Source: Acidimicrobiales bacterium (GTDB taxonomy: Bacteria > Actinomycetota > Acidimicrobiia > Acidimicrobiales > RAAP-2). From it: a stretch of 55,287 nucleotides of DNA. Location: positions 1-55,287 of the forward strand of contig JADGOE010000014.1 of the NCBI GenBank assembly GCA_017883135.1, read 5' to 3'. The translations under genes were made by a program, and so were the position numbers. Below, piece by piece: positions 49,979 to 55,287 of this stretch (position 1 is the first letter of the stretch; each line of letters opens with the position of its first letter). The notes under the pieces were generated by a model that worked only from the letters and a program-made list of their open reading frames with translations, ran no database searches and had not been told where the DNA came from.

Positions 49979-51607
49979 TCAAGGGTAGTGGTCCGGCAGA
50001 TCGTTCTCGTACAGCACGGTGTCCCCGTCCTTGACGTGCTCCTTCACCCACTCCACCGCCCGGTGGCGGTCACCGAGGAGCTGGACCGAGGTCGCCGAGT
50101 CGGCCACCGACGCCACGCCGGCGGCGAGGGCCCGGCGGTTGGTTCGCCCCACGATGAGCAGGTCGGTCGCCACCGCGGCTACGGCCGCGCCGAAGCGCCG
50201 GTTCTCCTCGAACTGGCGCCGCCCGAGCTCGACCATGCCCGGCGTCACCACTACCAGTCGCTGTGGCCCGGCGGGCTCGCCCTGGTCCCCCTGCCCGCGT
50301 GCCCCGGCCAGTACCGCCAGCGCCGCCGATGCTCCGGCGGGATTGGAGTTGTAGGTGTCGTCCAAGATGGTGGCACCCGATGCGGCGCGCCCGGCCTGCA
50401 GCCGATGGTCGACTCCGGGGAGGTCGCGCAACCGGGAGGCGATCGCACCAGGCTCCACCTTCAGCCCCAGTGCCACGCCGATGGCGCAGGCCAGGTTGGA
50501 GGGTTGGAGACCGGTGGGTACCTCGACATCCTCGGCCAGTGCCTGGCCGGCGACGTAGGCCGACACCCGAGCGCCACCGTCGCAGCGCACCACGCAGACG
50601 TCGGCCGACCGGTCCGATCCCGAGCACCGGACCACCCGCTTGCCACCGGCGGCGTGACGGTCGGCCAGGGCCGCCAGAGCGGGGTCGTCCACCTGCAGCA
50701 CCACGTCGCCCGCCGGGTCGATGATCTCCGACTTGGCCTCCACGATGCGGTCGACCGACCCGAAGCGCTCCAGGTGCACCGGACCGATCGCGGTGATCAC
50801 CGCCAGGTCCGGCGGGCACCAACGGCACAGATCGGCGATCTCGCCGGGCCCGTAGGTCCCCATCTCCGCGACGAACACCTCGGTGCCGTCGCTCAGCTGC
50901 TCGTTGACGGCCCGAGCCAGGCCGGCTCTGTTGTTGAAGCTGGCCGGAGTGGCCACCACCGTGCGTGTCGGTCGGACCAGATGGGTGATGTAGCCCTTGG
51001 TCGACGTCTTGCCGTAGGAACCGGTCACGGCCACCACCGTCGGGGCAACCCGGGCCAGCCGTGCGGCGGCGGCGTCCACGAAACGACCCGACCGCCGGCG
51101 CTCCACCGGCGAGGTGATCCAACAGGCCAGGTCGACCAGCACGGGGGCGGCGAGGACGGCCGCCACGGCCACTGCCGACGCCGGCCCGAGCAGTAGCCCG
51201 GCCACCAACACCACCACTACCAGCCCCGCCCATACGCCGGCCAGGGTGCGCAGCCGCCGGGTCCAGGCCAGGGGTGAGGTCCGGCCCCGGACGGTGAGCC
51301 CCAGCGGACCCGCTGCCACCACGGCCGCGGTCGCCACCCCGGCGAGCGGCCACCACCAGGACGCCACGGCGGCGGCGAGGGCCACCAGTGCCAGCGCAAC
51401 GGCGGGCGCGGACGTCGTCCACCACCGGCCGCCGAACCGCACTGCCGAACCGGCCAGGTAGTGCTCCCGTTGGGCCACCCGCAGCCACCGGAGGCCGGCC
51501 GGGAGACATGCCAGCGCACAGGCGGCGACCGTGACCCAGGCCGTGCCGGCGTGGAGGCGCTGTGGGCCCAGCGCGCCCAGAGCCCGCCAGTAGAGCGGGC
51601 CGCTCAC
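49979..51607 (-). CDS. MurF-like Mur ligase with N-terminal membrane domain
   Basis: A 542-residue protein. Residues 1-165 are strongly hydrophobic with about 4-6 membrane helices, then a Mur ligase: P-loop TGSYGKTSTK (195-204), EMGTYGPGEIADLC, ITAIGPVHLERFGS and DDTYNSNPAG, matching MurF-type central and C-terminal domains. The P-loop reads GKTSTK rather than the MurF GKTTTK. The GTG start overlaps the hydrolase stop (GTGA). With Ddl downstream, adding D-Ala-D-Ala to a muropeptide is likely; a related, non-canonical ligase is an alternative. Confidence 0.85.
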   Translation of the reverse strand: MSGPLYWRALGALGPQRLHAGTAWVTVAACALACLPAGLRWLRVAQREHYLAGSAVRFGGRWWTTSAPAVALALVALAAAVASWWWPLAGVATAAVVAAGPLGLTVRGRTSPLAWTRRLRTLAGVWAGLVVVVLVAGLLLGPASAVAVAAVLAAPVLVDLACWITSPVERRRSGRFVDAAAARLARVAPTVVAVTGSYGKTSTKGYITHLVRPTRTVVATPASFNNRAGLARAVNEQLSDGTEVFVAEMGTYGPGEIADLCRWCPPDLAVITAIGPVHLERFGSVDRIVEAKSEIIDPAGDVVLQVDDPALAALADRHAAGGKRVVRCSGSDRSADVCVVRCDGGARVSAYVAGQALAEDVEVPTGLQPSNLACAIGVALGLKVEPGAIASRLRDLPGVDHRLQAGRAASGATILDDTYNSNPAGASAALAVLAGARGQGDQGEPAGPQRLVVVTPGMVELGRRQFEENRRFGAAVAAVATDLLIVGRTNRRALAAGVASVADSATSVQLLGDRHRAVEWVKEHVKDGDTVLYENDLPDHYP

Positions 51608-52425
51608 TTCGTGGCGCCGGCCGGTGGCATCCCGATTGGCCCGTTCCCCGGCTCGGATGCCGGGCCGGTATGGCCGGCGATGATCTCCGCCAGCGCGGCG
51701 GGGGCCTCGGTGGGCACCAGGTGGCCGACACCGGGCAGGGTGGTGAGCGTCGCCCCGGGGAACAGCGGTCGGGCCCGGACTGCCACCTCGACGGGTACCT
51801 CGCCGTCGTCCTCGCCCCACACCAGGTCGACCGGACAGCCGATGGACGCCAGCTCCTCCGCGTACTGCTCGGCGAGCACTCGCACGAACACGCCCCGCAT
51901 CACCCCCTCGGCCGCCCGGTAGTCGGCCGAGCCGTACCTGTTGCGCAGCGCCTCCATCCGCTCGTCGCCCACTATCCCCATCCGGTGCAGCCGTCGGGCC
52001 AGTCGGAAGGGGGCAGGGACGCGGCTCGTCCTGTCCAGCCGGTCGAGCAGGGGCACTCCGGTGAGCACCAGGCGCTCGATCCGGTCGGGCACCAGGGCGC
52101 AGAGCCGGATCGCCACCCGCCCTCCGAACGAGTGGCCCACCACCACGATGCGATCAGCCAGGGTGCCGGGCTCCTCGAAGAGAGGTACCAGGTGCCGGGC
52201 GTACTCGCCGGTGCCCCAGGCCTCGGGCGGAGGAGGTGTGGCCCCGAAACCGAACAGGTCGAGCCCGATGGCCGCCAGGTCGCCCGAAGCGCCGGGCCGA
52301 TCGAACACCTGCGAGAAGTCGTGGTGGGTGCGCTGCCATCCATGCAGGGCGAGCACCGTGGGCACTCCGGAACCCCAGGCTCCGCCGAACATCCGACCGC
52401 CGGCGAACGACTTCAGCACCGGCAC
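51604..52425 (-). CDS. alpha/beta hydrolase
   Basis: A 273-residue alpha/beta-hydrolase with nucleophile S99 in VVGHSFGGR, an acid in VWGEDDGEVP (D207) and H235 in GVGHLVP, plus the HGW oxyanion loop LALHGWQRTHHDF. The triad is complete. The GTG start at 52425 lies directly upstream of the MurF-like gene, which overlaps its stop, so hydrolase, MurF and Ddl probably form an operon. The substrate is unknown; cell-wall or ester hydrolysis are guesses. Confidence 0.9.
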   Translation of the reverse strand: MPVLKSFAGGRMFGGAWGSGVPTVLALHGWQRTHHDFSQVFDRPGASGDLAAIGLDLFGFGATPPPPEAWGTGEYARHLVPLFEEPGTLADRIVVVGHSFGGRVAIRLCALVPDRIERLVLTGVPLLDRLDRTSRVPAPFRLARRLHRMGIVGDERMEALRNRYGSADYRAAEGVMRGVFVRVLAEQYAEELASIGCPVDLVWGEDDGEVPVEVAVRARPLFPGATLTTLPGVGHLVPTEAPAALAEIIAGHTGPASEPGNGPIGMPPAGATK

Positions 52426-52542: not shown

Positions 52543-53742
52543 TCACCGGTAGGCGTGGGCCAGCCTGGCCGCGAGGTCTCCCCGTAGTGGATCGTCGGGT
52601 CCGGTCAGGCTGTCGGCGCGCTCGATGACCTCGATGTCGAAGGGGTAGAGCTCCGCGAACCTGAGGAGCTGGTCGGGCTGCCCGTGCCCGAGGAGCGCCG
52701 TCCGGAGGCTGACGTCGAAATGGTTCCGGAGTTCGATGATGAACGGGCTCTCACTTCCGGGCAGGAGTTGGCCCCCACAGAGGCGCAGTGCGCCTTCTGC
52801 GTCACCACGCTTGAGGGCGGCCAACGCGTCGACGATGTCGGCATCGACCGTGAGGGCGAGCCGGTAGGGGCGTGATTCGATGGCGCCGCCGAGGAGCTGG
52901 CGGAGGTGGGAGATCTCCGCCTTGAGGGTGCCCCCGCTCACCGGGCGCTCGCCGTAGAGATGGTCGTGCAGCTCCTCGAGGCTTGCCTCCCCCCGCACGG
53001 CGAGGATGGTCAGGATCTCCAGCTGCCGCTGGGAGATCCGCACCGGCCGGCCACCCAGCTCCACGCGGGGGTGTCCGAGCACGTTGAGGCGCAGGTCCGG
53101 CCGCTCCCACGGGCCGGCGAGGAGCCGTTGCTCGACGAGTCGGCTCATGGCCACCACGGTTGCGAGTGCCAGGGGCGAGGCCCGCCGCCACGGGGCGCTC
53201 AGGTCCACCACTCCGAGCACCCGCCCCGTCCGGGCCCGGACCGGGGCCGCGTAACACACCCAGTCCTGCATACCATCGCACCAGTGCTCGGCCGCGAAGA
53301 CCGCCGCCGGGCGACCCGTGAGGAGTGCCAGACCGGGGGCGTTGGTGCCGGCAGCGGCCTCGTTCCAGTCGGCACCACGCACGAAGTTGGCCCGCTCGGC
53401 CAAGCGAGACATCGAACGGCCTGCGGCACTCCAGGCGATTCGGCCCGAGCCATCGGTCACCGCTGCGACGTAGTCCTCGCTGGTGGCGAGCAGGGCCAGA
53501 TCGTCGACGACGTCCTGTGCCGCCATCCTGATCGGCGACGCGGACCAGCGGGAGTCAGCGTCCTCGAGGTCCAACGGGGCGGGACGACCGACCGACACCA
53601 GGTTGGCGCAGCGGCGCCACGATTCGCCGACCTCCGCCGAAAGGTCGCCCGGTGCCGCAGCGCTCCCATCGAAGTTGCAGCGAGCGGCATCCACCTTCCG
53701 GCGACGTTCCACCAGGTCATCGGTCCGGGAGCTCTCGGCCAA
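52543..53742 (-). CDS. GAF-domain transcriptional regulator with C-terminal winged-helix
   Basis: About 399 residues. The middle part resembles a GAF sensor domain ([55 protein letters not shown]). The C-terminal part reads [20 protein letters not shown] and [17 protein letters not shown], a winged-helix/SARP-like output instead of the Fis-type helix seen in AcoR. TTG 53742 is the likely start; a downstream GTG is possible. It is divergent from the aldehyde dehydrogenase gene with an 80-base spacer and probably controls it, as in similar actinobacterial pairs. Confidence 0.83.
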
Positions 53743-53822
53743 CCTATTACCAACCCTTCGAGCGCAGGATACCCCCAAGAGCAGCACCAAAGGGGCTGCG
53801 CGCAGAACACAAGGGGGATCCC

Positions 53823-55241
53823 ATGACCTATCCAACCCCGGGCACGCCCGAGAGCCCGGTGCAGTTCAAGGACCGCTACGACAACTTCATCGGCGGCAAG
53901 TGGGTACCACCGCTCGAGGGACGGTACTTCGAGAACATCTCGCCGATCACCGGCCACCGCTACTGCGAGGTCGCCCGATCGGACGCCGACGACATCGAGC
54001 TGGCGCTCGACGCCGCCCACGCAGCGCGGGAGGCGTGGGGCAGGACGAGCGCGGGCGAGCGGTCGAACGTACTGCTGCGCATCGCCGACCGGATCGAGGA
54101 GAACCTCGAGTACCTGGCCGTGGTGGAGTGTTGGGAGAACGGAAAGCCGGTACGCGAGACACTGGCCGCCGACATGCCCTTGGTGGTCGACCACTTCCGC
54201 TACTTCGCCGGCGTGCTCCGCGGCCAAGAGGGCTCGATCTCCCAGATCGACGAGGACACCGTCGCCTACCACTTCCACGAGCCGCTCGGCGTGGTCGGAC
54301 AGATCATCCCGTGGAACTTCCCGATCCTGATGGCGACCTGGAAGCTGGCACCGGCACTGGCCGGCGGGAACTGCGTGATCCTCAAGCCGGCCGAACAGAC
54401 CCCGGTGTCGATCCTGATCGTCGCGGAGCTCATCGCCGACTTGCTTCCCGACGGGGTGCTGAACATCGTCAACGGCTTCGGAACCGAGGCGGGCAAGCCC
54501 CTGGCATCAAGCCCCCGTGTGGCAAAGATCGCCTTCACCGGCGAGACGACCACCGGCAGGTTGATCATGCAGTACGCGTCGGAGAACATCACACCGGTCA
54601 CACTCGAGCTGGGCGGGAAGAGCCCCAACATCTTCCTCGCCGACGTGATGGACGCCGACGACGACTTTCTCGACAAGGCCGTCGAGGGCTTCGTGATGTT
54701 CGCCCTGAATCAGGGCGAGGTGTGCACCTGCCCGTCGCGGGCGCTGATCGACGAGTCGATCTACGAACCCTTCATCGAGCGGTGCCTGGCCCGGGTCGAG
54801 GCCATCACCGGTGGCAACCCGCTCGACACCGGCACCATGCTCGGCGCACAGGCGTCGAACGATCAACTCGACAAGGTCCTGTCCTACATCGAGATCGGCA
54901 AAGACGAGGGGGCCACGCTGCTCGCCGGCGGCAATCGCCGCACCGTCGAGGGGTTGGAGGACGGTTACTACGTGGAACCGACCGTGTTCCTCGGCGACAA
55001 CAGCATGCGCATCTTCCAAGAGGAGATCTTCGGCCCGGTGGTGGCGGTGACCACGTTCAAGCACGAGGCGGAGGCGATCCGTATCGCCAACGACACCCTC
55101 TACGGGCTGGGCGCCGGGCTGTGGACCCGCAACGGCAACTCCGCCTACCGGATCGGACGGGCCATCGAGGCCGGTCGAGTGTGGACCATGGGCTTGATCC
55201 GGTTCGACGGACAGGTTGCTTGTGTTGATCATGCCGCCTGA
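53823..55241 (+). pseudogene. aldehyde dehydrogenase, 3' end replaced by an IS element
   Basis: The first 455 codons encode a normal NAD(P)-dependent aldehyde dehydrogenase: PWNFP (N165), K188 in LKPAEQTP, E262 in LELGGKSPN and a Cys pair in [10 protein letters not shown] (C301/C303). After GRVWT (ending at 55187) the family's conserved C-terminal segment is absent; 17 unrelated residues lead to a stop at 55241. The gene is thus about 50 residues short of the usual 500-510. The start ATG follows AAGGGGG. It is divergent from a GAF regulator. Activity is probably lost because the C-terminus contributes to the dimer and active site. Confidence 0.88.
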
Positions 55242-55287
55242 CGGTCGGCGTTGCGGTGGACAGCTTCCCATTCGGCGGGACTGCAGT
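55189..55287. mobile_element. end of an IS3-like insertion sequence (right part outside the window)
   Basis: Aldehyde dehydrogenase similarity stops at 55187/55188 and the following sequence begins TGGGCTTGATCC, containing TTCGACGGACAGG, which resembles terminal repeats of actinobacterial IS3-type elements starting with TG. The transposase tail lies on the opposite strand directly inside. The element's other end, target duplication and exact inverted repeats cannot be seen. The window ending inside it fits an assembly break at a repeated element. Confidence 0.6.
55229..55287 (-). CDS. IS3-family transposase (OrfB), C-terminal fragment
   Basis: The minus-strand frame ending at TGA 55231-55229 reads [18 protein letters not shown], preceded by a codon ending in AC (compatible with Tyr). 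The pattern Y-x-SPAEWE matches the end of IS3-family OrfB integrases, where GYxSPxEYE/F follows the DDE core. Only 18 residues are visible, so the family call rests on this short signature plus the disrupted aldehyde dehydrogenase beside it. Confidence 0.55.

Follow-up and report, generated by a model that had tools for sequence, protein, structure and literature searches.

Evidence for an IS3-family insertion in the exaC gene of a draft Acidimicrobiales genome

Results

An interrupted dehydrogenase gene at a contig end

We analysed a stretch of 55,287 bases (hereafter the window), which is contig C3 in full, from a draft genome of 2,959,467 bases in 126 contigs. The window closes on an aldehyde dehydrogenase gene that is cut short. 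We hold with high confidence that an IS3-family insertion sequence broke this gene, exaC, duplicating CCA at its target, and that the two halves of the gene now lie on C3 and on another contig, C72. Both junctions between gene and element are present in the assembly, together with the target duplication, the inverted ends of the element and its homology to transposases. The stop of the window at 55287 is the end of the contig and no biological edge. The features of this region are collected in Table 1.

Table 1. Features around the interrupted dehydrogenase gene (positions in the window)
Feature	Position	Strand	Basis or remark
Divergent GAF-domain frame, probable transcriptional regulator	52543..53835	-	Longest frame; Pfam GAF
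ExaC-type acetaldehyde dehydrogenase gene, 5' part (455 codons and one base)	53823..55188	+	Profile matches, homologues
Open frame of the interrupted gene	53823..55241	+	455 native residues and 17 from the element, then stop
CCA, one copy of the target duplication	55186..55188	+	Other copy after the element's far end on C72
IS3-family element, orfB end, 99 bases, stopped by the contig end	55189..55287	.	Repeats in the genome
Element orfB, last 18 codons and stop	55229..55287 (codons 55285-55229)	-	Reverse-strand translation

A first-pass annotation of this DNA had described the dehydrogenase frame as intact through GRVWT, and we observed indeed that it is open from 53823 to ...IEAGRVWT, which ends at 55187. 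The same annotation placed a switch to unrelated sequence at 55187/55188. The switch itself is there, at a slightly different position: base 55188 (A) is the first base of the dehydrogenase gene's next codon, and the unrelated sequence starts one base on, at 55189, where the element opens with TGGGCTTGATCC... This first base of the element is also the one from which the annotation expected a match to insertion sequences. Starting at the junction codon, 17 foreign residues are added before the stop at 55241, so that the broken gene would yield a product of 472 residues, with 455 of 505 native residues and without the last 50.

This product matched Pfam Aldedh with 478.7 bits (profile positions 1-422 of 461) and the NCBIfam ExaC model NF050026 with 831.2 bits (positions 2-455 of 503), which is below the equivalog cut-off of 900, whereas two intact homologues score above it (955.7 and 945.4 bits). 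The dehydrogenase is 79% and 78% identical to its homologues in G019 and G033, two genomes of the same family, and, among solved structures, 9fm9 and the ExaC entry 9koi are nearest to it in sequence. We infer that, before the break, the gene was of the ExaC acetaldehyde dehydrogenase type. Since the nine other dehydrogenase matches in its own genome are 30-39% identical, it is the only close exaC of the genome and not its only aldehyde dehydrogenase.

Conservation of the lost tail

For comparison, we used 89 homologous exaC loci, consisting of 9 from relatives and the best 80 of at least 594 in genome_contigs. A tail of 50-51 residues containing FGGYK.SG.GRE was complete in 87 of these 89 loci. 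Since this conserved 50-residue segment is missing from it, the broken dehydrogenase is likely nonfunctional. It could be argued that the truncated enzyme still works and that the insertion was nearly neutral: the native sequence is retained as far as GRVWT, and with it an 11-residue stretch that we take to lie around the likely catalytic cysteine, and translation stops after the 17 foreign residues. The conservation of the lost tail speaks against such a working enzyme, which we therefore consider very unlikely.

The exceptions to the complete tail are L026 and L073, the latter being described at the end of this report. L026 (genome G036) was considered as another possible break, nearly at the same codon; this was rejected, the tail of L026 containing an assembly gap of 2 N. 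In addition, the closest exaC relative (L028:978-2256, genome G024) is 88-90% identical and lacks about 29 residues (176-204), with a frame change at that place; either the gene is broken or the assembly is wrong there. G024 holds a second exaC copy, L022.

The element end and its copies in the genome

The reverse-strand frame at the edge of the window had been taken for the end of an IS3 OrfB. This was confirmed, the codons from 55285 to 55229 giving the last 18 residues of OrfB and its stop, by which alone OrfB is represented in the window copy. We compared this 18-residue tail with the OrfB of a related full element on C6, which ends ...LSPAQYEARLHNANRQAA. The C6 element is 1,297 bases long and codes for an OrfA of 105 residues, which matches HTH_Tnp_1 of Pfam, and an OrfB of 295 residues, the two genes overlapping by ATGA. 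The C6 OrfB contains the Pfam domains rve, HTH_21, rve_3 and rve_2 (integrase core) and matches the NCBIfam IS3 transposase model NF033516 with 334.8 bits (cut-off 160). Through this related full copy, the sequence from 55189 onward is matched to an insertion sequence. At the start of C6, 68 of the window's 99 element bases are matched at 88%. A tyrosine-recombinase-like integrase frame, recognised by eye, is found on C6 close to the full element (L007:1909-3051).

The same element end was found at or near three contig ends of the genome (C3, C36 and C46). C36 carries the 99 element bases of the window with 98 of 99 identical, the match stopping 24 bases short of the contig end, and the start of C46 carries the element end with 97 of 97 bases identical. 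Each of these two copies has a different sequence on its outer side. Searching at an E-value of 0.001 or better, we detected the element end in 12 of 100 genomes, its own included. The 45-base exact end pattern had no match in genome_contigs and the 99 bases had none in the plasmids collection, two sources from which the own genome or near ones may be absent.

The 858-base middle of the interrupting copy, as reckoned against C6, was not found in the own assembly. A search of the own genome with the C6 OrfB gave nothing beyond C6 itself and, on C86, a match of 28%; the middle of the copy in the window thus appears to be unassembled. For the C36 and C46 copies, the opposite end was likewise searched for in the own genome and not found, and the target duplication reported below covers one copy of the element (C3/C72). 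The C46 copy (L006:89-628) cuts a Prim-Pol gene, the profile being matched to position 99 of 158, and the C36 copy (L005:1723-3593) sits where an AAA_25 frame ends, behind a Prim-Pol gene. These two copies suggest that mobile elements are further targets of the element.

The other half of the gene on C72

To find the missing tail, we took as a query the 50 residues of the relative L020 and searched them against the own genome. The tail was detected at C72:343-492, where its 50 residues are 90% identical to those of L020; the eight other matches, with E-values up to 1, lie elsewhere and are 36-52% identical. C72 opens with 340 bases from the far end of the element, coding for 95 OrfA residues that are 88% identical to the C6 OrfA. 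The element ends there with ...GGAAGCCCA, and is followed by CCAACTGCTACCACGCC. The two element ends on C3 and C72 are inverted repeats that share 22 of their first 25 positions, the terminal inverted repeat at the window's end being TGGGCTTGATCCGGTTCGACGGACA. Thus, the rest of the dehydrogenase gene, which the first-pass annotation had proposed to look for on another contig along with a target duplication of 3-4 bases, is found on C72 directly past the far end of the element.

The duplication was found as well. Before the element, the window reads ...TGGACCA and, after it, C72 reads CCAACTGC; the site without an insertion, as read in 8 loci of 7 related genomes, is TGGAC(C/G)AACTGC. L026 was left out of this comparison for its N gap, yet it has the same reading across the site. 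CCA being present on both flanks and the relatives having a single site, we conclude that there is a target duplication of three bases, with the frame in register. Indeed, when the flanks were joined once computationally, a single 505-residue frame was obtained.

We also compared the two halves of the gene with each other. Third-position GC is 0.91 in the head half and 0.90 in the tail half. Nucleotide identity to L028 is 86% for the head and tail sides alike; with three other relatives, the head side reaches 69-80% and the tail side 74-85%. In 4-mer make-up, the first 8,000 bases of C72 are at 0.118 from the window and six other stretches are farther, at 0.194-0.367, three of these coming from other genomes and three being short stretches with mobile genes. 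This closeness would weakly support the pairing of C3 and C72, which is made from sequence and by which both ends probably come from one insertion.

One insertion, a misjoin or a mixed population

The window is the contig end of a fragmented draft, and misjoins are commonest at contig ends in such drafts. The break could thus be that of a chimaeric assembly, the organism having an intact gene to which the element was misjoined at a repeat. However, the element has an end on each side of the break, the two ends are inverted, the three-base duplications match and the gene is in register, and a misjoin would not give inverted ends, a duplication and register together. Moreover, no uninterrupted copy is present in the assembly. 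We therefore reject the misjoin as extremely improbable.

The insertion could also be carried by a part of the population only, with carriers and non-carriers side by side. A mixed population is possible because the genome is a draft, with a completeness of 98.22% and a contamination of 2.57% as estimated by the tool used; it is fragmented and perhaps derived from a metagenome. The insertion looks recent, too, the two halves being without decay in their open frame and in the third-position GC given above. In contrast, the uninterrupted allele is absent from the assembly, and we consider a mixed population unlikely. The insertion may be fixed in the population. It is probably recent, since the ends of the element are nearly identical and the halves of the dehydrogenase gene show no decay.

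Altogether, we propose that an IS3-family insertion sequence entered exaC, the single close gene of this type in the genome, immediately behind codon 455 and duplicated three bases, CCA. The inserted element was probably about 1.3 kb long, as judged from the related C6 copy. Because the genome has several copies of the element, the assembly breaks inside it, and exaC would in this way have been split by the assembly, with its 5' part ending C3 and its 3' part beginning C72.

The neighbouring putative GAF regulator

The frame divergent from exaC matches Pfam GAF with 29.2 bits (cut-off 22.4). Its match to NCBIfam DhaR is partial and, with 56.9 bits, far under the cut-off of 551. In agreement with the first-pass annotation, which considered the adjacent GAF regulator intact, the frame is open over 52543-53835; in its longest form it overlaps the start of exaC. 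Among the 89 exaC loci (80 of them the best of at least 594), relatives of the GAF protein were found upstream of exaC in 32 at an E-value of 0.001 or better, 8 being divergent and 24 in the same direction. For 16 of these 32, the E-value was below 1e-20, and the weaker matches are in many cases restricted to a part of the protein. Two further loci have a relative downstream of exaC, and at 55 of the 89 none was found, 5 of the 55 holding less than 1,300 bases upstream.

The annotation had presumed exaC to be the target of this regulator, a target that would then have been knocked out. Because GAF relatives occur upstream of exaC, this target seems reasonable as judged from gene neighbourhood only. 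Titles and the openings of abstracts in the literature on exaC with a GAF regulator yielded nothing useful. Elsewhere in the window, at 49979-51820, a 613-residue frame resembles, by eye, a Mur ligase that carries a membrane part at its N-terminus.

Discussion

The disruption of exaC by an IS3-family element is a real but ordinary event, this type of element being common. As far as the assembly settles it, a dehydrogenase gene that ends at a contig edge was here a real disruption and not an assembly cut, and both halves of the gene as well as the target duplication could be recovered from a draft assembly. In models of the aldehyde metabolism of this organism, the interrupted exaC should not be counted as functional by default.

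The broken gene can be compared with ExaC, the NAD+-dependent acetaldehyde dehydrogenase (NF050026; structure 9koi). Its product is alike over profile positions 2-455 and differs in being broken after residue 455, with a score under 900. As for the element, members of the IS3 family carry OrfA and OrfB towards opposite ends, and likewise here, with C3 and C72 taken as a pair, part of OrfA is on C72 and the last 18 residues of OrfB are in the window. The family's ends, TG...CA in inverted repeat, are present at the C3/C72 ends, and its short target duplication is represented here by the 3 bases CCA. Insertion with a 3-base direct repeat has been described for the IS3-family element IS150 (PMC11708052). 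A difference is that the interrupting copy is known here from its two ends only, of 99 and 340 bases.

Counting the gene described here and, apparently, that of Cohnella thermotolerans, 2 of 90 exaC genes (80 of them the best of at least 594) were hit by a transposon. The 3' part of exaC might be a recurrent transposon site, perhaps since it is at times advantageous to lose the enzyme; because there are only these two cases among 90 genes, such a site is not established, and we find it highly improbable. In Cohnella thermotolerans DSM 17683 (L073:4447-6819), the exaC frame also departs near its 3' end into a two-gene element, 26 codons past the position interrupted here. We take this two-gene element to resemble IS21, with its IstA/IstB pair. 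With an apparently IS21-like element and a host of another phylum, the disruption in C. thermotolerans is an event independent of the IS3-family insertion described here.
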